Source: an uncultured Bacteroidales bacterium (GTDB taxonomy: Bacteria > Bacteroidota > Bacteroidia > Bacteroidales > Bacteroidaceae). From it: a stretch of DNA of 64,000 bases. A program made the position numbers and the translations under genes. This document shows positions 16,200 through 40,934 of this stretch, piece by piece (the first letter of the stretch is position 1; each line of letters begins with the position of its first letter). Location of the stretch: positions 62,001-126,000 of the forward strand of contig CADCIP010000001.1 of NCBI GenBank assembly GCA_902801485.1. The letters are read 5' to 3'. Below the pieces are notes generated by a model. That model saw only the letters and a list, made by a program, of their open reading frames with translations, ran no database searches and had not been told where the DNA came from.

Positions 16200-16634
16200 T
16201 TACCTTCCGGATGCCAACAGTTCGTATGGTATTTCGTCGCAGAGCATCGAACAGGCTTTCTGCTCTGCCGGAGTATCGTCGTCAGCTTTTGCCAGCATAG
16301 GCTTCTCGTACTTGGTGACGGTACGTGTCTGATATACGGTATCGCGCACAATCTGAACCTGCATGATGGTGTCATGCCGTATCTCAATGCTATTGGCTAT
16401 TGGCTGTAGGCTATTGGCTGTTGGCTGTGGTCCGTTGTCTATTGCCATATTAGCATGAAGCGAGAAACCTGCAAGGAAACCTATCAGACTGGCAGCAACA
16501 GCAATGGATTTACCATTTAACCATTTACTATTTACCATTTGCCGTCCTTGCCAAGGCTCAACATGCATTTGGCCATCTACCTTCTGGCGTCCCCGACGGG
16601 CCGACTGGATAATATCTTCGTTACTTATTTTCAT
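16200..16634 (-). CDS. Small single-pass membrane protein, putative anti-sigma partner
   Basis: 144 residues, overlapping the end of the ECF sigma gene by 14 nt, so translationally coupled. One hydrophobic segment lies at about 43-62 (SIAVAASLIGFLAGFSL). The N-terminal 40 residues are basic and cytoplasmic; the C-terminal part (TIMQVQIVRDTVYQTRTVTKYEKP) is outside. Position after a sigma factor and topology suggest an anti-sigma or membrane anchor, but no zinc anti-sigma motif is seen. Two heptanucleotide arrays lie in frame: 16507-16541 before the TM segment (NSKWLNGKS) and 16389-16430 after it (PQPTANSLQPIANS). Confidence 0.6.
   Translation of the reverse strand: MKISNEDIIQSARRGRQKVDGQMHVEPWQGRQMVNSKWLNGKSIAVAASLIGFLAGFSLHANMAIDNGPQPTANSLQPIANSIEIRHDTIMQVQIVRDTVYQTRTVTKYEKPMLAKADDDTPAEQKACSMLCDEIPYELLASGR
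16389..16430 (-). repeat. Heptanucleotide array, 6 units, in frame
   Basis: GCTATTG GCTATTG GCTGTAG GCTATTG GCTGTTG GCTGTGG. Confidence 0.8.
16507..16541 (-). repeat. Heptanucleotide array with one 8-nt unit, in frame
   Basis: GATTTAC CATTTAAC CATTTAC TATTTAC CATTTGC; five related words with one extra base. Confidence 0.6.
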
Positions 16635-17196
16635 ATTGCTTTAGTTTTTTACGGATGATGTTCATTGTTTTGTGCAGACGGGACTTAACCGTTCCGGCTG
16701 GAATACCTACTATTTCAGCAACTTGCGGAATGGTCAGTTCCTCCTGATAATGCAGGGAAAAGATCTGGTGCAGCGGCGCAGGCAGTTCCGAGAGCACTTG
16801 CTCAAGCACCTTATCCAGCGTAGCAGCATCCATTTCCACTTCAATCTGCCCCTCAGATATGGGTTCGGCATCCAGATTGGCCAGCAGTTGGGCTTCGTAG
16901 GCATTGTCCCTGTAATGGTTTCGGCAGATGTTGTAGGCAATGGTAAAAATCCACGTACTGACGTTGCTGCCCTCCTGATAACGGCTACGGGCCTCATAGG
17001 CACGCAGGAAGACATCGTGCGTAGAATCGGCTGCCAGTTCCTCATCGCCACCTAATTGCATAAAGAAGAAGCCCTTCAACCTACGGGCGTAGCGGCGATA
17101 CAACTCCTCGAAAGCTGTATCGCTGCCTGCCGCAGCCCTCGCCATCAGCTGCTCATCAGTCTGGTGGCGCAGGGGTTTAAGATAAAAGATGCTCAT
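16621..17196 (-). CDS. ECF sigma factor (sigma-70 family)
   Basis: 191 residues with sigma region 2 (about 20-90: FEELYRRYARRLKGFFF, DVFLRAYEARSRY, STWIFTIAYNICRNHYR) and region 4 (about 130-185: LSLHYQEELTIPQVAEIVGIPAGTVKSRLH), the two DNA- and core-binding domains of ECF factors. It overlaps the stop of the upstream secreted-protein gene by 4 nt and the start of the downstream membrane protein, so all three genes form one operon. It directs RNA polymerase to an unknown regulon, presumably responding to an envelope signal. Confidence 0.92.
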   Translation of the reverse strand: MSIFYLKPLRHQTDEQLMARAAAGSDTAFEELYRRYARRLKGFFFMQLGGDEELAADSTHDVFLRAYEARSRYQEGSNVSTWIFTIAYNICRNHYRDNAYEAQLLANLDAEPISEGQIEVEMDAATLDKVLEQVLSELPAPLHQIFSLHYQEELTIPQVAEIVGIPAGTVKSRLHKTMNIIRKKLKQYENK

Positions 17197-22491: not shown

Positions 22492-23193
22492 TTAGTATTC
22501 TACATATTGTTGTTCTGCTCTAATTTGCTGATTAAGCATTGCCACATATTGTGTCACCTGCTCACCTCGCTGACGAATTTCCTGTGCTTGGGTAGCATAA
22601 GAAGAAGGAGAAGGTTTCCTCATTTTATCAAGAAACTCTTGACAAGCTGCTTCTGTAGGAAACTCTTCAACGGTTTCTGCTTCTGCCAGCAAAGGCTCTT
22701 CCTGAGGTTCTTGGGGAACGACTCGCTTTCGCTTAGGAGTCCTTTTAGGCTTTACAATAGCAGGCTGTTGAGAGGCCCCCTCCATCCTTGCCCTCCGTCG
22801 CGAATGGGGATTCGCTCCCCTTTGTGGGGCCGTAGCCACATTCAGTGGCAACTCTAAAGACCCCAGTCGCCCCTTTAGGGGAGTGCTGAATTGAGAGTCT
22901 GCTATTGGCTCTTGACTCTCAACTCTTGGCTTTTCTAAAGCGAGGGGCGGTTGCTTCTCTGCCGATTTTGGCGGTGCCAAGAAAATGACAACGAAGCCTG
23001 CGACACAAGCGGCAGCTAAAAAGACCCACCTCCATCCCCTCCCTCTATGGAGGGGAGTTTTCTTCTTAAGACAATCGTACTCTTCGAGGCTTCCCATTAC
23101 CTTTTCATTCAACCCTTCAGGCATGGGTGGCAGTTGTTGCTCACGCCTGCTGACAGCTTCCTTAAGGTTGATGTCGTTCTTAATATCGTTCAT
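22492..23193 (-). CDS. Putative anti-sigma / membrane partner of ECF sigma, repeat-expanded
   Basis: 233 residues. The N-terminus (about 1-45) is cytoplasmic, followed by one TM (WVFLAAACVAGFVVIFLAPP, about 51-70) and a periplasmic tail rich in E/Q. Just before the TM an in-frame palindromic element gives KKTPLHRGRGWRW. After the TM a heptanucleotide array (22891-22932) and two more palindromic copies (22772-22882) build about 60 residues of low-complexity linker. The TM plus PPLALEKPRVESQEPI is nearly identical to the partner at 26647, proving common descent. It lies 3 nt after the sigma gene. Anti-sigma function is inferred from position and topology. Confidence 0.65.
   Translation of the reverse strand: MNDIKNDINLKEAVSRREQQLPPMPEGLNEKVMGSLEEYDCLKKKTPLHRGRGWRWVFLAAACVAGFVVIFLAPPKSAEKQPPLALEKPRVESQEPIADSQFSTPLKGRLGSLELPLNVATAPQRGANPHSRRRARMEGASQQPAIVKPKRTPKRKRVVPQEPQEEPLLAEAETVEEFPTEAACQEFLDKMRKPSPSSYATQAQEIRQRGEQVTQYVAMLNQQIRAEQQYVEY
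22772..22882 (-). repeat. GC-rich palindromic elements (two copies, in frame)
   Basis: GGCCCCCTCCATCC ... GGGGATTCGCTCCCCTTTGT ... and CCCCAGTCGCCCCTTTAGGG GAGTG; both keep the frame of the membrane protein. Confidence 0.65.
22891..22932 (-). repeat. Heptanucleotide array, 6 units, in frame
   Basis: TTGAGAG TCTGCTA TTGGCTC TTGACTC TCAACTC TTGGCTT; encodes PRVESQEPIADSQF. Confidence 0.8.
23024..23066 (-). repeat. GC-rich palindromic element, in frame before a TM segment
   Basis: Minus-strand reading ACTCCCCTCCATAGAGGGAG GGGATGGAGGTGGGTCTTT matches the family's CTCCCC..GGGGAG..GGGGGCTTT layout. Confidence 0.7.
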
Positions 23194-23196
23194 AGC

Positions 23197-23736
23197 TCAG
23201 AGAGTTTTAATGATTCTGTATAGTTTCTTGCGTATGCGACTCAACTGGGAGCCGACGGTAGAGGGAATGGAGCCTGTGATATAGGCAATATCGGCAAGGC
23301 TCTTTTCTTCGTAGTAGAACATGCTTATAATGGCCTGTTCATGAGGCGGCAGTAAGGATAAGGCCTGCTCCAGAAGTGCTATGGTGTGCTCGTCTTGTGG
23401 TGCATCATCAGGAACTTCAAAGGAATCGGAGCCCAGCTCGCGGTCGTCTATATATATAATGTTAGGCTTTCGGCTGCGCAGGAAGTTGAGCGACTCGTTA
23501 TAAGCAATCCTGCTGAGCCAAGTACCGAGCGACGCTTGCTTGGGGTTATAGTTCTGGATGCCCCGTAGTGCCTTAACAAACACATCCTGATAAACCTCCT
23601 CGGCATCCTCACGCTGGGTGATGATGCGCTGCACCATTCGGAAGACAGCCGGACCGTACTCCGTAAGTAGCTTCTGGCAGGCAGCAGGCTTCTGGTGCTG
23701 CAAGTCTTGAATCAACGTGTTTGTTTCCTTCTCCAT
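23197..23736 (-). CDS. ECF sigma factor (sigma-70 family)
   Basis: 179 residues with region 2 (about 12-85: KLLTEYGPAVFRMVQRIITQ, EEVYQDVFVKALRG, GTWLSRIAYNESLNFLR) and region 4 (about 118-170: LPPHEQAIISMFYYEEKSLADIAYITGSIPSTVGSQLSRIRKKL). It leads the operon 23736-21271. Upstream DNA (23745-23780) has a TTGCAATAATTTT...CGTGTATATA pattern that could be an ECF-type promoter and suggests autoregulation, but I cannot test it. The intergenic stretch 23737-23968 otherwise holds only the promoter of the divergent ATPase. Confidence 0.92.
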   Translation of the reverse strand: MEKETNTLIQDLQHQKPAACQKLLTEYGPAVFRMVQRIITQREDAEEVYQDVFVKALRGIQNYNPKQASLGTWLSRIAYNESLNFLRSRKPNIIYIDDRELGSDSFEVPDDAPQDEHTIALLEQALSLLPPHEQAIISMFYYEEKSLADIAYITGSIPSTVGSQLSRIRKKLYRIIKTL

Positions 23737-26646: not shown

Positions 26647-27219
26647 TTATTGATATTTTATTTGATTATCCGTTAATTGTGCTATCTCTCGTCCTATCTC
26701 TCGTCCTAAACGTTCCCCTCGCGAACGAATGTCTTGAATCTGAGCCGCCACAGCAAGGAGTGGGTCCTCCATTTCAGGATGAGCCCCTCTCTCAATCTCC
26801 GCCTCTGTTAACATAGGCTCCGCTATTGGCTGTTGGCTCTTGGCTTTTGGCCGTTGGCTTTTAGCTTTTGGCCTTCGAGAGGTGACAGTTATCTTTTGGC
26901 TCTCGACTCTTGGCTGTTGACTCTCGGTTATTGGCTCTTGACTCTCGACTCTTGGCTCTTGACTCTCGGTTATTGGCTCTTGACTCTCGACTCTTGGCTC
27001 TTCCATAGCGAGGGGCGGTTGTTCCTCTGACGTTCTGGGTGGAGCAAGGAAAATGGCGATGATGCCTGCCACACAAGCGGCTGCGGCAAGTGGCCAGAGG
27101 CGAAGGCGGCGACGGGGCTTCTTTCTTGCTTCCATCAGACGGTCGTACTCCTCTGTCAGGTCGGCCTGAAAGATATCAATATCCTCTGCGGCTTGGTGTA
27201 TCAGTTCTTTGTCAATCAT
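26647..27219 (-). CDS. Putative anti-sigma / membrane partner with heptapeptide repeat linker
   Basis: 190 residues: cytoplasmic N-terminus (about 1-40, DIFQADLTEEYDRLMEARKKPRRR), one TM (LAAAACVAGIIAIFLAPP, about 43-60), then a periplasmic tail. Residues about 73-133 are an uninterrupted heptapeptide repeat (SQEPRVE / SQEPITE / SQQPRVE / SRRPKAK / SQRPKAK), encoded exactly by the 26-unit heptanucleotide array. It overlaps the sigma start-side neighbour by 8 nt (27212-27219). It is homologous to the partner at 22492, whose corresponding linker holds six heptamers and palindromic elements instead. Confidence 0.65.
   Translation of the reverse strand: MIDKELIHQAAEDIDIFQADLTEEYDRLMEARKKPRRRLRLWPLAAAACVAGIIAIFLAPPRTSEEQPPLAMEEPRVESQEPITESQEPRVESQEPITESQQPRVESQKITVTSRRPKAKSQRPKAKSQQPIAEPMLTEAEIERGAHPEMEDPLLAVAAQIQDIRSRGERLGREIGREIAQLTDNQIKYQ
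26822..27003 (-). repeat. Heptanucleotide array, 26 contiguous units, in frame
   Basis: Words such as GCTATTG, GCTGTTG, GCTCTTG, GCTTTTG, ACTCTCG, ACTCTTG, GTTATTG follow one another without phase break for 182 bp. A 42-bp block (ACTCTCG GTTATTG GCTCTTG ACTCTCG ACTCTTG GCTCTTG) is itself repeated, so higher-order duplication has occurred. Confidence 0.92.
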
Positions 27220-27706
27220 TTGCTTTCGTCTTTAAGATGTTTAATAATCGCCTTTTTGCTGTGCTGAGCATAGCGCTGGCGGTACGTTTGGGAATGCCTG
27301 TCTGTTGTGAAATCTCCTCTATGCTCAGTTCGTCGCTTTTCAGTCGGATGAGCCTTTGCTCTGAGGGAGGTAATTGCCGGATAGCACTTTCAAGTTTTTT
27401 GCTCGTTTCACGCTCTATGAGAGAGGCATCGGCAGAATGCCGTTCTTCTGGTTCAGGCACACAAGCCAATGGTTCTGTGGCTCGGAGCTTCTGGCGTCGC
27501 CACAAACTCACACACAGATTCTTTGTGGCTCGGATAAGGAGAGCTTCCAGATCGTCGCCCTCTTGCCAGCCCCGGCGGAGCATACGCTCGTATACCTCCT
27601 GCACTATATCCTCGGCATCCTCATCGTTACGGAAGAAGTCTTTGGCAACACACAGCATCTTTGTGCGCGTCTTAAGCAGCGTATGTTCAAATTCTATCTG
27701 TGTCAT
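27212..27706 (-). CDS. ECF sigma factor (sigma-70 family)
   Basis: 164 residues with region 2 (about 5-75: EHTLLKTRTKMLCVAKDFFRN, DAEDIVQEVYERMLRR) and region 4 (about 105-155: LPPSEQRLIRLKSDELSIEEISQQTGIPKRTASAMLSTAKRRLL). It is first in the operon 27706-25470. The 62-bp gap 27707-27768 to aroB has no recognisable terminator. Confidence 0.9.
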   Translation of the reverse strand: MTQIEFEHTLLKTRTKMLCVAKDFFRNDEDAEDIVQEVYERMLRRGWQEGDDLEALLIRATKNLCVSLWRRQKLRATEPLACVPEPEERHSADASLIERETSKKLESAIRQLPPSEQRLIRLKSDELSIEEISQQTGIPKRTASAMLSTAKRRLLNILKTKAND

Positions 27707-34280: not shown

Positions 34281-35771
34281 ATGATGATAAGTGATGAATT
34301 AGGGGCTCTATTAAGAGGGAATTTCGCTCATGAACCCACAAAAGAGCAGAATTTGGTGGTATGCGAGTGGGAGAATTTCCTACTCAGCAGAAATGCCAAT
34401 ACACTTTTTCTGCTGAAGGGGTATGCCGGAACGGGAAAGACCTCGCTTGTGGCAGCCTTGGTAAAGACTCTGTTACAGCTGAAACAGCCGGTAATGCTGC
34501 TGGCTCCTACCGGCAGGGCGGCCAAGGTACTCTCCTCTTATGCAAATGCTCCCGCTTACACCATTCACAAAAGAATATATCGTCAGAAATCCATCACAGA
34601 GATGGACAGCTTCCGGACAAGCGTCAATCTGCACAAGCACACGCTCTTTATTGTGGACGAGGCCTCGATGATTGCTAACGAAGGGCTTTCCGGCTCTATG
34701 TTCGGAACAGGACGGCTGTTGGACGACCTGATGCAGTTTGTATATTCGTGCGAAGGTTGCCGACTGATACTGGTAGGTGATACGGCTCAGCTTCCTCCCG
34801 TGGGAGAAGAGGAGAGCCCTGCCCTGAGTAGAATTGTTCTGGAAGGCTATAATCTGGATGTCATGGAGGTGCATCTCACTGAGGTAGTAAGGCAAGAGCA
34901 GGAATCGGGCATCCTTTGGAACGCCACTCATCTGAGGCAACTGATGCAGGAGGAGATGTATTACGAGTTCCCCCGTCTGCGAACCAACTTCCCAGATGTA
35001 TGCGTCATGCCGGGCGATGAACTGATAGAGGCTTTAGAGGACAGCTACCACCAATGTGGAACCGACCAAACCATTGTGGTGACCCGTAGCAACAAACGAG
35101 CTAATATATTTAATAATGGTATAAGGGCAAGAATCCTGGATTATGAGGAGGAACTCTCCAGTAACGACTTAGTGATGGTAGCAAAGAACAACTATTACTG
35201 GACAAGCCTCACCCCCCGCCCTCTCTCAGGAGAGGGGAAATCAAGAAAGCCTTCCTCCTCGGGGGAAGGTTTGGAAGGGGGCTTTTTCATCGCCAACGGC
35301 GATGTGGCTGTAGTACGGCGTTTCCGGAACGAGCGTGAGCTTTACGGTTTCCGTTTTGCTGATGCCACCTTGCGGTTCCCCGACTATGATAATCTGGAGA
35401 TGGATGTAACGGTCTTGTTAGATACGCTACAAAGCGAGGCCCCTGCCCTCACCCGTCAGCAACAGGAACAACTCTTCAATGCCGTGTGGGAGGATTATCC
35501 CGAGATTCGTGACAAACGCGAACGTATGAAACGCCTACGCCAAGACCCCTATTACAACGCCCTTCAGATTAAATATGCCTACGCTGTAACTTGCCACAAG
35601 GCGCAGGGTGGACAATGGCAGCACGTGTATATCGACCAAGGTTACATTACCGAAGATATGCTCTCCCCAGATTACTTCCGCTGGCTCTACACAGCTCTAA
35701 CAAGAGCCACAGAAAAAGTCTTTCTAGTAAACTGGCCAAAGGAACAGATAGAGACGTTAGACTTTAGTTAA
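34281..35771 (+). CDS. RecD-like ATP-dependent DNA helicase (superfamily 1)
   Basis: 496 residues. Walker A GYAGTGKTS (about 47-55), Walker B FIVDEASMI (about 128), the motif GDTAQLPPVGEE (about 168), and the UvrD-like C-terminal YAYAVTCHKAQGGQW (about 433) with YTALTRATEKVFLV make it an SF1B 5'-3' helicase related to RecD and PIF1/Dda. It is compact and lacks partner RecBC genes. Around residues 309-336 two in-frame palindromic elements insert SLTPRPLSGEGKSRK and SSGEGLEGGFF. The stop codon lies in a hexanucleotide array, followed by a terminator. Confidence 0.88.
   Translation: MMISDELGALLRGNFAHEPTKEQNLVVCEWENFLLSRNANTLFLLKGYAGTGKTSLVAALVKTLLQLKQPVMLLAPTGRAAKVLSSYANAPAYTIHKRIYRQKSITEMDSFRTSVNLHKHTLFIVDEASMIANEGLSGSMFGTGRLLDDLMQFVYSCEGCRLILVGDTAQLPPVGEEESPALSRIVLEGYNLDVMEVHLTEVVRQEQESGILWNATHLRQLMQEEMYYEFPRLRTNFPDVCVMPGDELIEALEDSYHQCGTDQTIVVTRSNKRANIFNNGIRARILDYEEELSSNDLVMVAKNNYYWTSLTPRPLSGEGKSRKPSSSGEGLEGGFFIANGDVAVVRRFRNERELYGFRFADATLRFPDYDNLEMDVTVLLDTLQSEAPALTRQQQEQLFNAVWEDYPEIRDKRERMKRLRQDPYYNALQIKYAYAVTCHKAQGGQWQHVYIDQGYITEDMLSPDYFRWLYTALTRATEKVFLVNWPKEQIETLDFS
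35207..35286 (+). repeat. GC-rich palindromic elements, two copies in frame in the helicase
   Basis: CTCACCCCCCGCCCTCTCTC AGGAGAGGGG, then CCTTCCTCCTCGGGGGAAGG TTTGGAAGGGGGCTTTTT. Confidence 0.75.
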
Positions 35772-35799
35772 CGATAACGATAAAGACAACGATAACGGG
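35770..35799 (+). repeat. Hexanucleotide array, 5 units
   Basis: AACGAT AACGAT AAAGAC AACGAT AACGGG, across the helicase stop codon. The same AACGAT word recurs at 61322. Confidence 0.7.
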
Positions 35800-35835
35800 C
35801 GGACAGCACATTTCACAGCACTATCCGCTTTTCTT
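35799..35835 (+). terminator. Terminator hairpin with conserved downstream tail
   Basis: GCGGACAG (35799-35806) / CTATCCGC (35821-35828), then TTTTCTT. The following ACTAACAA-CAACGG-TGGAAC (35837-35860) recurs with the same spacing after the hairpin at 41654. Confidence 0.7.
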
Positions 35836-35885
35836 CACTAACAATACAACGGAGTGGAACATGAGCAAACAAGTCTCCGTAATGT

Positions 35886-35907
35886 TTTAACATCTTTTAT
35901 GGGTAAA
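35886..35907 (+). promoter_or_regulatory. 22-bp motif upstream of the ECF-TonB fusion gene
   Basis: TTTAACATCTTTTATG followed by GGTAAA, 51 bp before the ATG at 35959. The same motif with one change lies 54 bp before the 37034 gene. Candidate target of the adjacent sigma factor. Confidence 0.55.
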
Positions 35908-35958
35908 CTTTCGGAGTATTTTGCGTTAAACGAGTAGAAACTCTAAACAACGGACACA

Positions 35959-36903
35959 ATGGGAACTGACTTTATAACAGAACAAGCGTTCAAGGAAATG
36001 GTTGAACGGATGCGCCCCCGACTGATGCAGATGGGACGCGAGTTCTTCGGTTCCGACACCGAGGCCGAGGAAGTAGTACAGGAAACATGGCTCAGGGCAT
36101 GGAACGTGCGCGACAAAGTGATGCTCACCGATGCCTACGTCATGCGCATTGCCCGCAACTGCTGCGTCTCGATGTGGCGCGGACAGCGGGCTCAAATAGA
36201 ATTGGCAGCCGATGACGGCACAGCCGTAACAGAGATTACACCAGAGGAAGAGGTAGAGGAGAAGGAGAACTCTGAATGGCTATTGTCGCGCCTGCAACGT
36301 ATGCCCAAGAACGAACGTGAAGTATGGCAACTGTTCTATGATGATGGCTTGACAGTAGAAGAAATTGCCGAAGTACGCAGTATCAGCGTTGCTACCGTCC
36401 GTAAGACTATCTCAAATGTCCGAAGCCGTTTGCGCAAAGACATACGCCGTCATTTCTTCGGATTACGCCATCTGCTTATCTTAATCTTCGTCGCCCTGAT
36501 TACAGGCATCGCTGTGGCAGCCTTCGTCAATCCGCAGGGCCGCGTGCGCGGTATTATGGAAAAACTGTTATTCATACCGGAAGATACAACAATATATGAT
36601 AGTCCAGAAGTATTACCAAGCAGCAATATGGATTTAGAAAAGTTCTACAGATTTATCATTTCAGAACTGCATTATCCGGAATCAGCTGCTGATGAGGGCG
36701 TAGAAGGGCATGTTATTGTCAGCTTTGTAGTCGAGAAGGATGGTAGCCTTACTCATTTTGAGACTTTGAATTCGCCTGATGAGCGTCTCAGCGCAGAGGC
36801 CATCCGTGTTATTAGTCTGACTGCACCTTGGCATCCTGCACAGAATAAAAAGAAATCTGTCCGTAGCCGGTTCAGTTTGCCAATCAATTTCAGATTAAAG
36901 TAA
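35959..36903 (+). CDS. ECF sigma factor fused to a TM segment and a TonB C-terminal domain
   Basis: 314 residues in one uninterrupted frame. Residues about 1-165 are an ECF sigma: region 2 (LMQMGREFFGSDTEAEEVVQ, VMRIARNCCVSMWRGQR) and region 4 (NEREVWQLFYDDGLTVEEIAEVRSISVATVRKTISNVRSRL). Residues about 176-194 are a TM (LLILIFVALITGIAVAAFV). Residues about 222-314 are a TonB C-terminal domain (YPESAADEGVEGHVIVSFVV ... RVISLTAPWHPAQNKKK). The topology puts sigma in the cytoplasm and TonB-C in the periplasm. No separate anti-sigma is present. The next gene is a TonB-receptor-like barrel with the same upstream motif, suggesting one signalling unit. Release by proteolysis or tethered activity are both possible. 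Confidence 0.82.
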   Translation: MGTDFITEQAFKEMVERMRPRLMQMGREFFGSDTEAEEVVQETWLRAWNVRDKVMLTDAYVMRIARNCCVSMWRGQRAQIELAADDGTAVTEITPEEEVEEKENSEWLLSRLQRMPKNEREVWQLFYDDGLTVEEIAEVRSISVATVRKTISNVRSRLRKDIRRHFFGLRHLLILIFVALITGIAVAAFVNPQGRVRGIMEKLLFIPEDTTIYDSPEVLPSSNMDLEKFYRFIISELHYPESAADEGVEGHVIVSFVVEKDGSLTHFETLNSPDERLSAEAIRVISLTAPWHPAQNKKKSVRSRFSLPINFRLK

Positions 36904-36926
36904 AGAGAAAATAGTCCTAAAGTCAC

Positions 36927-36954
36927 AAGCCTCACTGAGAAGTGGGGCTTTTTT
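36927..36954 (+). terminator. Intrinsic terminator after the ECF-TonB gene
   Basis: AAGCCTCACT-GAGA-AGTGGGGCTT then TTTT (36927-36954). Confidence 0.8.
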
Positions 36955-36957
36955 CGG

Positions 36958-36979
36958 TTTAACATCTTTTATGAGTAAA
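36958..36979 (+). promoter_or_regulatory. 22-bp motif upstream of the 37034 receptor gene
   Basis: TTTAACATCTTTTATG followed by AGTAAA; 21 of 22 positions match the copy at 35886, at almost the same distance from the start codon. Confidence 0.55.
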
Positions 36980-37033
36980 GATTTGGGCAGAAATACATTT
37001 AAAGGATAGAAACAGGAACAAAACGAATACACT

Positions 37034-39763
37034 ATGTCAAACAATAGTTTCTTTCACCGCTTTATGCTCATCATTACCATTCTCGGCACAGTTGGTAAGG
37101 CACAGAGTCAAACCATTATCGAGGGGACAGTAACGGACTCTCTCGGACGAGCTGTGGATGCTTTCATTACTATATCGCCCAAAGGCACAGGCAATATCAT
37201 CGGTTTTGCTGATACTGAAGAAAAAGGCTACTATAAGCTTCAGTTCAAAAGTGAAACGGACTCCGTAGTGGTAACGGCTGCGGGAATGGGTATTGGCAAT
37301 GTGTCGCGTATCGTAGGTAATAAATCCCAACGATTGGATATTATGGTTCACCATAAAGAGATTGAACTCAGGGAAGTGTCAGTCAAGGCTGATAAGATAC
37401 GGCAGAACGGCGACACCATCAATTACTTCGTCGGTACCTACCAGCAGCAGGGCGATCGCGTCATAGGTGACGTACTGAAACGTATGCCTGGCATCGAGGT
37501 GTCTGAGAACGGGGGCATCAAGTACAACGGCAAGGCCATCAAAAAGTTCTACGTGGAGGAAATGGACCTGCTACAGGGTCGTTATGGCATAGCAACCAAC
37601 AACATCAATGCACAGGACGTTGCCACCGTGCAGGTGCTTGAGAACCACCAGCCCGTAAAGATGTTACAAGGCAAGACCCTTACAGATGATGTTGCCATCA
37701 ACCTGAAGCTGAAGAACTCAGCCAAAGGAACGATAGCCATCAACACTATGCTGGGAGGCGGTGCACAACAGGCGCAGACCTTAGGCAGCAATCCCTTATG
37801 GACAGCCGAGGCGGTAGGCATGTACTTTGCCAAACGCCGTCAAAACATGACATTATATAAAGGTAATAATACAGGCGAAGATATATCAAAAGAACTTACA
37901 CAGCACTATTCCAGTATCAATAGTGTAGGCCTTTACCCCTTCTGCCCAACGAATGTTATACAGCCCAGCGGCTCTGGTCTTCCGCAGAAGCGTACTTTTA
38001 ACAACCACAGCCACATCGTTACGCTCAACCATTTGGAGAAACTGAACAAAGATACGGAGACAGGCATTAACATTGCCTATCATAACGACTGCATACGCAG
38101 GGAAGGAAATAGTCTGAGCGACATCTTTATAAATGATGACAGCAGATTGCTAACCCGAGAGATTCTGACCAGTGAAACGAAGATAAACAACCTGAATGTG
38201 CAGGCGCGTTACAACTGGAATGCAGAAAACGGTTTCATGGCTAATGTGCTGAAGTTTGATACCAATTGGAACAGCGACCATGTGGATGGTCTGATGGCGT
38301 CAGAACAGATGGGATTCGTACCTGTGAACTATGGCAACGAGCGTGTCCGCCAGCACTTCCGCCGTCCGGAACTCTCCATCTCGAACACCTTTAATACCAT
38401 ACGTAACATAGGCAAGAACACCTTTGACCTTCATTTCTCAGCCGGCTATGCACACCGTCCCAATACCCTCAACGTAGCAATTGACTCATTGGATTCACAA
38501 TCCATAATCCACAACTCGCAATCATATCAGCAGGACATTAACTCCCACCATATTGCCGCTTGCTTCAACACCAGCTACGAGTTCCGCTTGGGCGATCATT
38601 TCCGCTTCAACTACGGCATCAACGCATCGGCCAATCTGCATGGCATCGTTACCGACCTTGATGGCGCAACCAACTTTCAACTCTCAACTTTCAACTCTCA
38701 ACTAACCAATGACCTCTGGTACAACACCTACAACATAGCCCTTTGGCAAAGCTACAAATACAATACTCACGACTTAGACATCACCCTGGCTTTGCCGTTA
38801 GAGCTCTATACACAAACGCTGGACGACCGCATCCGCAAGGACAAGAACAGCTACACCCATCTGCTCTTTTTCCCTTCGCTCTCGCTCAATTGGGTCATCA
38901 CCCGTAACCTCTGGTTCTCTGCAGGTGGCAACTACAGCAAGACCGTGGGTGATCCGGGCGGCATCTATAGCGGCTACATTATGTCTAACTACCGCGCTTT
39001 CCAACGCAGCTACGTAGACCAACTCTCCGAGACCAAGAACTACAGTGCCAACGCAGGCCTGCGATACCGTAGTGCCATTCGCGCCATCTTTGCCAATGTA
39101 GGCTTTAATTACCGCCGTACTCATGACAATCAGATTTATGGTTACAGCTACGAAGGTGCCACCAGCGTGGTGCAAGCTATCAACCAACCCACCGTTGCCC
39201 AGACATACAGCATTAGCGGCGATGTCAGCAAAGGCTTTGATTTCTTGCACTCTAACATTCGCATCTTTGGCGGGTACCGCCTCTCTGAGAGTGAGCGTCT
39301 TATCTCCCAAAACCTATACCAATATCATGCTCAGGACATCAGCTTCGGCGGCAGTCTCTCGTTCTGTCCCGTAGAATGGATGGGCATCGTCTGCAGTAGC
39401 GGTTTCAACCTCAGTAGAAGTAAGACCAAGAGCACATCACTTACACCAGGTTGGAATGGGGCTACCGTACGCAGCAGCACACAGCGCTTGTCCATGAGCC
39501 TATATCCTACCAAAACACTTACGTTGACACTGGCTGCCGAAGACAACTACAATAATCTGACGGAAGAGAACCGCCATGCCTGGTTCGGTGATGTCTCGGC
39601 CAAGCTCAAGCTGAAGCGCTTTGACTTAGAGCTCCAACTCAACAATATCTTTGACCAGCGCCAATATACCCGCGTAACGTACAGCAGTCTGGACATCTAC
39701 ACACAGACCTCGCAACTGCGTCCCCGTAATGCAATCCTTACCGTAAGATTCAAACTTTTTTAA
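37034..39763 (+). CDS. TonB-receptor-like outer-membrane protein
   Basis: 909 residues: signal peptide (HRFMLIITILGTVGKAQSQ), CarboxypepD_reg-like domain (about 29-110), plug-like domain (about 120-240: GDVLKRMPGIEVSENGGIKYNGKAIKKFYVEEMDL), then a beta-barrel ending in ILTVRFKLF, the classical aromatic terminal strand. It is a distant relative of the 29050 protein. Heptanucleotide arrays lie in frame at 38496-38523 (SQSIIHNSQS) and 38667-38701 (FQLSTFNSQL), in predicted extracellular loops. It follows the ECF-TonB gene and precedes a GLPGLI gene by 11 bp, so it is probably co-regulated and co-transcribed with the latter. Confidence 0.85.
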   Translation: MSNNSFFHRFMLIITILGTVGKAQSQTIIEGTVTDSLGRAVDAFITISPKGTGNIIGFADTEEKGYYKLQFKSETDSVVVTAAGMGIGNVSRIVGNKSQRLDIMVHHKEIELREVSVKADKIRQNGDTINYFVGTYQQQGDRVIGDVLKRMPGIEVSENGGIKYNGKAIKKFYVEEMDLLQGRYGIATNNINAQDVATVQVLENHQPVKMLQGKTLTDDVAINLKLKNSAKGTIAINTMLGGGAQQAQTLGSNPLWTAEAVGMYFAKRRQNMTLYKGNNTGEDISKELTQHYSSINSVGLYPFCPTNVIQPSGSGLPQKRTFNNHSHIVTLNHLEKLNKDTETGINIAYHNDCIRREGNSLSDIFINDDSRLLTREILTSETKINNLNVQARYNWNAENGFMANVLKFDTNWNSDHVDGLMASEQMGFVPVNYGNERVRQHFRRPELSISNTFNTIRNIGKNTFDLHFSAGYAHRPNTLNVAIDSLDSQSIIHNSQSYQQDINSHHIAACFNTSYEFRLGDHFRFNYGINASANLHGIVTDLDGATNFQLSTFNSQLTNDLWYNTYNIALWQSYKYNTHDLDITLALPLELYTQTLDDRIRKDKNSYTHLLFFPSLSLNWVITRNLWFSAGGNYSKTVGDPGGIYSGYIMSNYRAFQRSYVDQLSETKNYSANAGLRYRSAIRAIFANVGFNYRRTHDNQIYGYSYEGATSVVQAINQPTVAQTYSISGDVSKGFDFLHSNIRIFGGYRLSESERLISQNLYQYHAQDISFGGSLSFCPVEWMGIVCSSGFNLSRSKTKSTSLTPGWNGATVRSSTQRLSMSLYPTKTLTLTLAAEDNYNNLTEENRHAWFGDVSAKLKLKRFDLELQLNNIFDQRQYTRVTYSSLDIYTQTSQLRPRNAILTVRFKLF
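38496..38523 (+). repeat. Heptanucleotide array, 4 units, in frame
   Basis: CACAATC CATAATC CACAACT CGCAATC. Confidence 0.65.
38667..38701 (+). repeat. Heptanucleotide array, 5 units, in frame
   Basis: CAACCAA CTTTCAA CTCTCAA CTTTCAA CTCTCAA; encodes NFQLSTFNSQL in the barrel. Confidence 0.8.
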
Positions 39764-39774
39764 ACCAATAAATT

Positions 39775-40638
39775 ATGAACAGAAGATTTTATATTATCAT
39801 TTTGGCCTTTGCTGCCATATGCAATGGGGCAAGTGCACAACAGAAACAGGGGAGGGTACATAGACCATTGCCTGCTGACTATGGGATGAAGAAGCCAACC
39901 ATGATTGGCCGAAGTAAAATAAGGATTAAGTATGCTTTCCAGCCAAAGGACATACACGACCCGGAAACGTGGATTGATTGTGGACAGTTGCTTGTCGGCG
40001 ACGGGCTGACGCTCTATACGAGTTATTTTGTGGCGCAAAATGATTCGGCTCTGCGCGCATGGCTGAAAGCCAATCCCAAGAAGAGTTACTATCCCAATAG
40101 ATTGTGCCTTCATGGGCGAGACTATGCTTTCTGGACGGAGTATCAGTATGGCTATTTCTATGTTCGTGAAAATGAACTGACCGAGTGGGCTATTATGCCC
40201 TTTCCTGAAATTACACACTATCGCTATAGTGAACCATGGCCCTCTATGAAATGGGAACTGAGTGATGAACAGCAGACCATCTGTGGCTATCAATGTCAGA
40301 AAGCCACATGCCATTGGCGTGGCCGAGACTTTGCGGCATGGTTCACGCCAAAGATACCTATAAAGTCGGGGCCTTGGAAATTTGGGGGATTACCAGGCCT
40401 TATTATGAAGGTATATGATAGCAGACGCCTTTATCTATGGGAGGCTGTGGCCGTAGAGAAGGGCTCCTTTCCCATCTACCAACCTGATGAACATATGTAT
40501 AAGAAGAGTACTCGCCAGAAAGTATGGAAAATGCAGAGCGAGTGGAACAAACGCCACAATGAGCTCGCCGGAGTGCTTGACTTCAACTTCCACCCCAAGA
40601 CAAAACGCTACCCATACGATCCACTGGAACTTGAATAA
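39775..40638 (+). CDS. GLPGLI family protein
   Basis: 287 residues, signal peptide MNRRFYIIILAFAAICNGASAQ. The family motif appears as KFGGLPGLIMKV (about 202-213), preceded by the typical CGYQCQKATCHWRGRDFAAWFTPKIPI. GLPGLI proteins are periplasmic or secreted proteins of Bacteroidota, often encoded after TonB-receptor-like proteins with a CarboxypepD_reg domain, as here. The function is unknown; the neighbourhood suggests cooperation with the 37034 receptor. Confidence 0.9.
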   Translation: MNRRFYIIILAFAAICNGASAQQKQGRVHRPLPADYGMKKPTMIGRSKIRIKYAFQPKDIHDPETWIDCGQLLVGDGLTLYTSYFVAQNDSALRAWLKANPKKSYYPNRLCLHGRDYAFWTEYQYGYFYVRENELTEWAIMPFPEITHYRYSEPWPSMKWELSDEQQTICGYQCQKATCHWRGRDFAAWFTPKIPIKSGPWKFGGLPGLIMKVYDSRRLYLWEAVAVEKGSFPIYQPDEHMYKKSTRQKVWKMQSEWNKRHNELAGVLDFNFHPKTKRYPYDPLELE

Positions 40639-40670
40639 CCCATTTTTACTAACAACTGGCAGTAACCCTT

Positions 40671-40778
40671 ATGCCCCGTTTCTCCAGCGATTGGGGTGGT
40701 GATATGAACACAGAGGAATACGCTGACATGCTTCGCAACGAGAACGTTGAAAATACAAGAACTGTTGAAACTTGGTAA
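40671..40778 (+). pseudogene. Small antitoxin-like ORF (35 aa), probably a remnant
   Basis: Encodes MPRFSSDWGGDMNTEEYADM then LRNENVENTRTVETW. The FSSxWGG...LR....RTVE-W pattern resembles short antitoxins that precede PIN-domain toxins in Bacteroidales. It ends 6 nt before the VapC-like remnant. Whether it is complete cannot be decided. Confidence 0.4.
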
Positions 40779-40784
40779 ATTTCT

Positions 40785-40934
40785 ATGGAACAATATTTGC
40801 TTGACACCTGCATTTGCATCTCTATGTTCCGAAACGAAGGGCGTAACAGAACAATTAGATGGAACAGCGATTCGGGAGAAATAGGATTGACCTTCAGGTG
40901 CTGCGGGAGTTCTGATTTGAGATGGGCGGGTTAA
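40785..40934 (+). pseudogene. VapC-like PIN-domain toxin remnant
   Basis: Begins MEQYLLDTCICISMFRNEG, the start of a PIN-domain RNase toxin (first acidic residue in LLDT). The expected continuation VTEQL appears only in another frame just after a GGG run, and both frames soon stop. So there has been a frameshift and loss of the remaining about 110 residues. Confidence 0.6.

Follow-up and report, generated by a model that had tools for sequence, protein, structure and literature searches.

A single gene in the stretch of DNA analysed here (the window, 64,000 nucleotides from an uncultured Bacteroidales bacterium) encodes an N-terminal ECF sigma factor, one transmembrane helix and a C-terminal TonB_C domain in one chain, with a topology that is predicted to place the C-terminal domain in the periplasm. 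Comparison with related genomes supports a one-molecule trans-envelope sigma factor that is linked to genes for an outer membrane barrel protein (OMP) and a GLPGLI protein and that has a promoter-like element in common with them. What can be read directly from the DNA is the set of domains and its conservation in one chain, the neighbouring genes, the shared element and the co-occurrence of that element with the fusion. In the reading favoured here, to which a probability of about one half is given, the fusion would be a one-piece trans-envelope switch for its own locus, combining a tethered sigma factor, a TonB_C domain that reads the OMP, proteolytic release and a loop through two copies of the element, P1 and P2.

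The fusion gene (35959..36903, plus strand) is an intact open reading frame of 314 amino acids. Its ECF sigma part spans residues 1-165 and contains only sigma regions 2 and 4, as in ECF (group 4) factors, matched by Sigma70_r2 at residues 14-77 (35998..36189, plus strand; Pfam PF04542, 8.8e-11) and Sigma70_r4_2 at residues 106-158 (36274..36432, plus strand; Pfam PF08281, 1e-9). A membrane helix at about residues 170-191 (36466..36531, plus strand) is indicated both by hydropathy, with a peak at residues 172-190 and a Kyte-Doolittle mean of 3.0, and by the AlphaFold2 model, which has a helix at 170-190. The best-scoring Pfam domain of the protein is TonB_C at residues 236-313 (36664..36897, plus strand; PF03544, 3.8e-17), with the periplasmic domain as a whole starting at residue 225-236 or so and ending at about 313-314. 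In the profile search all three Pfam domains scored over their gathering cut-offs, and TIGR02937 (6.4e-22, sigma part) and TIGR01352 (5.6e-11, TonB_C) scored over those of NCBIfam. Using the AlphaFold2 model, Foldseek matched the sigma part to the ECF sigma factor SigW (5wur, 4.8e-6), which was also the best solved structure by profile search, and the C-terminal part to TonB C-terminal domains (6sly, 1.5e-4; 6i97_D, 2.1e-4), the latter being part of the FoxA-TonB complex. The TonB_C block of the model has the TonB C-terminal fold with a pLDDT of 81-93, and the mean pLDDT for the whole protein was 77.6 with a pTM of 0.43, so that the model gives no prediction of how the parts sit relative to one another. 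The initial annotation had described one polypeptide that joins sigma regions 2 and 4 to a single membrane helix and a TonB_C domain at residues 222-314, and Pfam, hydropathy, AlphaFold2 and Foldseek agree on this arrangement, with the last domain starting slightly later than residue 222. Only about 10 residues lie between the end of region 4 and the membrane helix, leaving no space for a cytosolic anti-sigma domain, and neither FecR nor STN was among the 16 Pfam families matched in the fusion protein at E up to 1.

Sixteen full-length relatives were found in 14 other genomes and a sheep-rumen Bacteroidaceae MAG, giving with the window's own fusion 17 sequences that align end to end at 52-87% identity to the window's (six alignment rows begin a few residues late, having been trimmed at the match). 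The fusion of the sheep-rumen MAG is 87% identical, and a scan of contigs gave one true relative (L015), with five matches to ordinary sigma factors from other phyla left out. At the genus level seven full-length fusions occur in 6 of 61 genomes, own genome included, while at the family level 14 of 301 genomes have a match, 11 of these being full-length and distributed over six genera and the rest comprising two partial matches near contig ends (G306 and G259) and one sigma-only match (G186, 38%). No full-length match besides that of the own genome was found among 393 genomes of the order (E limit 1e-30) or 395 genomes of the phylum (E limit 1e-22), with up to five candidates per genome scored and misses therefore possible, such that a wide spread of the fusion in the phylum was not borne out. 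Likewise, no place on plasmids or phages covered 80% of the query. The alignments confirm the fusion as a real and conserved protein.

The gene order in the window is a RecD2-like helicase gene, the fusion gene, a terminator-like hairpin, the OMP_b-brl_3 gene and the GLPGLI gene. The hairpin (36927-36950, within a feature set at 36927..36957, plus strand), located 3' of the fusion gene, resembles an intrinsic terminator with a 10-pair stem and a T run and has a fold z of -1.78; since a scan of 35700-40900 gave five sites against 4.7 expected, the terminator-like call rests on its position. The presumed receptor is an OMP_b-brl_3 outer membrane barrel (37034..39763, plus strand; Pfam), and the presumed target, a GLPGLI / Porph_ging protein that is presumed to be secreted (39775..40638, plus strand; TIGR01200 3.6e-42, PF09697 7e-12), is the GLPGLI neighbour that had been named at the outset. 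The earlier description of the barrel as TonB-receptor-like stands in part: the OMP_b-brl_3 assignment is clear, but the plug is weak and AlphaFold2 modelled the barrel poorly (pLDDT 42.8). The window's OMP has a CarboxypepD_reg-like N-terminal domain below the Pfam cut-off, and among 12 OMPs CarboxypepD_reg was found in 11, Plug in two (weakly, best E 0.039) and STN in none. By hhalign, the N-terminal 200 residues of the window's OMP match those of a second OMP_b-brl_3 protein encoded in the window (probability 96.1). TonB-dependent receptors have a plug domain, a 22-strand barrel and a TonB box; in the OMP a conserved segment, ELREVSVKA, looks TonB-box-like by eye only, and a PDB sequence search with the OMP profile gave no matches.

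This neighbourhood recurs with the fusion. Of 17 loci laid out (that of L038 having its fusion gene masked in the layout by an opposite-strand ORF), two (L036 and L043) are on contigs that end too early, and in 13 of the 15 with enough downstream sequence GLPGLI and/or OMP genes lie directly 3' of the fusion. The OMP is present in 12 of these 13 loci, the contig of L042 stopping after the GLPGLI gene. In the two other loci an M23/S41-like protein (L033) or an opposite-strand gene that looks sensor-regulator-like by eye (L034) takes the place of OMP/GLPGLI. Several fusion operons hold further GLPGLI copies, and four encode stand-alone TonB_C proteins that are 134-156 residues long and begin with what resembles a signal peptide (L035, 11370-11792; L037, 2371-2841; L039, 7415-7819; L041, 11668-12072), the domain being confirmed by Pfam for that of L035. 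It is possible that these proteins, and the one found behind the promoter-like element in L072 (see below), are soluble competitors.

Other features of the region were recorded alongside these. The RecD2-like helicase gene upstream of the fusion (34281-35771) scores below the NCBIfam cut-off and carries an in-frame GC-rich palindromic insert at 35205-35282 (SLTPRPLSGEGKSRKPSSSGEGLEGG), and the OMP of L038 has in-frame inserts resembling it. Three further ECF sigma genes lie within 20 kb (16621-17196, 23197-23736 and 27239-27706 (-)), and just downstream of two of them are genes (22492-23193 and 26647-27219) whose products have a hydrophobic stretch and are without a Pfam match.

When 12 loci were aligned the DNA 5' of the fusion was unalike except for one block, which in most of them ends about 20 bases before the ATG. 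In the window this block, P1 (35886..35938, plus strand; TTTAACATCTTTTATGGGTAAA-N16-CGTTA), lies 5' of the fusion gene and contains a putative ECF-like -35 GGTAAAC (35902-35908) and -10 GCGTTA (35923-35928), both on the plus strand. A second copy, P2 (36958..37010, plus strand), sits between the hairpin and the OMP gene, 76 nt before the OMP start, and has a degenerate -10 part (ACATTTA). The consensus (TTTAACATCTTTTATrGGTAAA, 15 bases, GCGTTATA, gggcagAA) was drawn from 33 distinct sites at up to five mismatches, one of which (L053) is chance-like, and in the remaining 32 the spacing of the first three blocks is fixed. GGTAAA(C) and CGTTA at a fixed ECF-like distance would fit an ECF promoter grammar of the SigW-like kind. 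Upstream of the putative -35, a 15-base block TTTAACATCTTTTAT (35886-35900 and 36958-36972) varies no more than the -35 and -10 do and may be the site of a second protein or an unusual promoter extension. Upstream starts in several relatives would extend the fusion by a conserved TSFIGKL peptide, but this longer N-terminus was rejected because the DNA in question is the P1 element, copies of which also stand before other genes.

No copy of the element was expected in the shuffled window, and the own genome has only two sites, P1 and P2. Sixteen of 17 full-length loci have a copy 5' of the fusion gene, L047 having a degenerate copy only. Where GLPGLI/OMP follows, 10 of 13 loci have a second copy before the next gene, no P2 being found in L044, L045 and L047. 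At up to two mismatches 13 of the 17 genomes that carry a fusion, whether full or truncated, have the element (the exceptions being G131, G145, G259 and G306), against none of 13 without (12 of the same genus lacking a match, and G186; Fisher p 2e-5). For P1 this co-occurrence is partly built in, as the pattern was drawn from fusion loci and the loci are related, a reservation that does not apply to P2 and the extra sites. The reversed pattern was found in none of 30 genomes. With up to five mismatches allowed, the element occurred at 16 of 17 fusion loci but at only one of 20 loci that have an OMP relative and no sigma match, the one control match (L151) having five mismatches and lying about 10 kb from the OMP; the strict pattern was found at none of the 20, of which 14 have an OMP relative at 51% identity or more, one (L140) is without DNA upstream of the OMP and one belongs to a genome (G131) with the fusion elsewhere. 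The element therefore tracks the sigma factor, and the idea that it belongs to the OMP was discarded. Extra sites in four relatives head genes for M23/S41-like proteins of at least 481 residues (L062, L065 and L082) or a TonB_C + GLPGLI pair (L072), indicating a small regulon. The co-occurrence suggests that the element is recognised by the sigma domain of the fusion, which probably drives its own gene and the adjacent OMP/GLPGLI operon as a small local regulon.

The initial annotation knew of no characterised protein of this kind, a statement overturned by IutY of Pseudomonas putida (PMC5411451, PMC8999054). IutY (ECF243) has a cytosolic sigma domain, one helix and a periplasmic domain in one polypeptide and is freed by sequential Prc and RseP cleavage (PMC5411451, PMC8999054), a 168-residue truncate holding only the N-terminal ECF sigma domain (PMC5411451). 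A review describes it as the only fused ECF factor with its proteolytic activation characterised (PMC8999054). Through IutY the general kind, a hybrid of sigma factor, membrane helix and periplasmic domain encoded beside an outer membrane receptor, is known. In IutY, as in the fusion, the three parts form one chain and the gene adjoins an outer membrane receptor gene, which IutY regulates, yet IutY has a FecR-type anti-sigma domain where the fusion has TonB_C, and its partner IutA, a TonB-dependent receptor, carries a signalling domain whereas the OMP_b-brl_3 barrel is without an STN match. The two also belong to different phyla, and proteolysis is shown for IutY while the fusion is known from sequence. 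An independent origin of the two is likely.

Other systems share parts of this architecture. In FecI-FecR-FecA and PupR-PupB a sigma factor, an inner membrane helix, a periplasmic domain and an outer membrane partner likewise control the partner's own genes, but as separate proteins rather than one chain, and the periplasmic part of PupR is described as CJM + STN (PMC7186176) where the fusion has TonB_C. The fusion locus lacks two features that define FecR-type systems, the FecR/STN periplasmic domain and STN on the receptor. Further sigma-TM fusions, ECF48, ECF52 and ECF53 of the Actinobacteria, join the sigma factor via one or two helices to an extracytoplasmic part, and differ in their zinc-finger segment, their other extracytoplasmic domains and their phylum (PMC8999054).

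The own genome also holds a split counterpart (L049 5991-7272, on C27), in which an ECF sigma gene is followed by a TM-TonB_C gene and which is flanked by M23/S41 proteins like those under the fusion's element. It differs in being two genes and in that the TM protein keeps a cytosolic N-terminal domain before the helix and TonB_C. This N-terminal domain recurs in other genomes (L158-L162), beside a sigma gene in all five cases, and is therefore probably an anti-sigma domain. TonB_C also forms the end of a membrane regulator-like protein of the M56 (BlaR1) type, Peptidase_M56 and TonB_C being joined in L052, although the output domain there is a metalloprotease, not a sigma factor. A search of the 1.5 kb flanks of 19 TonB_C matches (L085-L103) with a profile made from this sigma factor, which could miss distant ones, found a sigma gene beside none of them.

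In the favoured reading the adjoining helix would hold the ECF sigma domain at the inner membrane, tethering being the inactive rest state, and the periplasmic TonB_C would sense the condition of the barrel made by the adjacent OMP gene, the simplest way being to bind its TonB-box or plug segment in the manner of TonB. This contact would change with ligand and expose the fusion to regulated intramembrane proteolysis, after which the freed sigma domain would join RNA polymerase and start transcription at P1 (for its own gene) and P2 (for the OMP/GLPGLI operon), giving a positive loop. We infer the topology, the contact between TonB_C and the OMP, the ligand and the tethered off-state, and for release of the sigma domain by proteolysis we infer from the analogy with IutY. 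That the periplasmic domain signals by cleavage or release, as had been suggested at the outset, is possible. The own genome has one RseP-family match and three Prc-family matches over the cut-off, but control genomes encode these families too (M50 in all 14, Prc in 11 of the 14), and the protease genes thus indicate no more than that release is possible. The spacer between membrane helix and TonB_C, about 45 residues without Pro-rich repeats, is far shorter than in TonB, so that for TonB_C to reach an outer membrane plug the N-terminal part of the receptor would have to come inward. Receptor signalling domains are reported to keep hold of the anti-sigma factor and shield it as long as no signal has come (PMC11637429), a precedent by which the contact between TonB_C and OMP could be the off-state.

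It is conceivable, though unlikely, that the sigma factor is active while anchored, as in ToxR or CadC, with a periplasmic signal altering folding or pairing and polymerase being recruited at the membrane with no cleavage. Sigma factors normally travel with the core polymerase to their promoters, which counts against this. In its favour, other one-piece membrane proteins occupy the same slot in five of 20 OMP clusters without the fusion: one is an M56 protein (L136), and four (L134, 5870-6892; L141, 6798-7823; L142, 5977-7005; L143, 5535-6716, called longer) are regulator-slot TM proteins of about 341 residues with a signal-like start, a TM near residue 180 and a C-terminal end that looks HTH-like by eye, those of L134, L141 and L142 having no Pfam match and that of L143 being alike by sequence. 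Transmembrane transcription regulators are also described as abundant in Bacteroidota (PMC10269533). Against it, cleavage does take place in IutY, the only hybrid characterised, and the nine truncations of it that were tested all proved highly active without signal (PMC5411451).

Whether the OMP is what the fusion reads can be addressed from the way the two diverge. In the sigma half of the gene L044 and L045 share 58-87% identity per 100 bases, and then from the helix through TonB_C, the intergenic DNA and the OMP identity is mostly 90-100% with a few bins at 75-89%. This reflects an exchange between two genera (G131 and G252) with a breakpoint near the membrane helix within the fusion gene, and indicates that TonB_C can travel with the OMP. 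Between the window and L015 dS is 2.26 in sigma and 0.37 in TonB_C, and identity between their OMPs rises from 80-92% in the first part to 96-100% in the remainder, pointing to an exchange centred on the barrel. In Mantel correlations on 12 related loci (eight tests), divergence of the plug followed that of TonB_C with sigma controlled for (partial r 0.47, p 0.0015) and did not follow that of sigma with TonB_C controlled for (0.03, p 0.43), with corresponding values of 0.45 (p 0.02) and 0.36 (p 0.06) for the presumed box segment and 0.35 (p 0.01) and 0.13 (p 0.16) for the barrel; for the N-terminal domain of the OMP TonB_C was not favoured (0.35, p 0.04, versus 0.48, p 0.0075, for sigma). Barrel and sensor are not strictly linked, as L046 and L047 have barrels 96% identical with TonB_C at just 55%. 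This last pair would fit a rather improbable alternative in which TonB_C reads GLPGLI or secreted TonB_C proteins or envelope stress, not the OMP, and the locus is a stress response. The short linker of the fusion's TonB_C, the stand-alone TonB_C proteins and many GLPGLI copies of the same operons and the sharing of the element with M23/S41-like proteins would fit it too, whereas the correlation of TonB_C with plug divergence given sigma, and the movement of TonB_C together with the OMP in one clear mosaic and partly in a second, speak against it.

The resemblance of the sensor to TonB raises two further readings. TonB energy transducers have an N-terminal helix that contacts ExbB/D and a long Pro-rich spacer. 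The fusion shares their C-terminal domain by both Pfam and Foldseek but has a sigma domain before the helix and a spacer that is short and lacks Pro-rich repeats. A tentative and less likely one, that of a 'transcribing TonB', would have TonB_C compete with the cell's TonB for the TonB-box or plug of its own receptor, so that loaded receptors, on which this segment is exposed, would pull on the tethered sigma factor or capture it; secreted TonB_C proteins from the same operons would then be soluble competitors damping the loop. That the fusion is instead a TonB energy transducer with a sigma factor attached, its main job being to energise the OMP, is very improbable: TonB_C is the top Pfam match of the protein, but the sigma domain occupies the place of the TonB N-terminus, there is only a short spacer, and transcription is the role to which the conserved promoter-like element points.

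An artefact, in which two genes were fused by a sequencing or assembly error, can be dismissed, as 16 relatives of other genomes (matches chosen for full length) have the same in-frame join and read through both domains without a stop, and dN/dS is low across the junction (median 0.286, against 0.155 in sigma, 0.358 in the helix, 0.258 in the linker and 0.129 in TonB_C). For these medians 15 of the 17 sequences were used, limited to pairs whose dS was less than 2, namely 83 of 105 pairs for the junction and 72, 70, 48 and 28 of 105 for sigma, helix, linker and TonB_C, respectively.

What is new in the fusion is its TonB_C sensor, its other receptor family and its other phylum. Among the papers listed in literature searches none was recognised as describing a sigma-TonB_C fusion, and an earlier mention is possible, for example in ECF classification work. 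The fusion looks like an independent case beside IutY, in a different phylum and with a different sensor. The locus offers convenient material: a terminator is predicted behind the gene, the two copies of the element are sharply defined and no further site exists in the own genome, which also holds the split counterpart, and at least one natural chimera has sensor and OMP moving together. It makes testable the idea that a TonB-type contact can carry a transcription signal without an anti-sigma factor and, should the 'transcribing TonB' reading be true, receptor occupancy would be read by the same handshake that powers transport. The fusion may also offer a lead on the unexplained GLPGLI/OMP_b-brl_3 operons.
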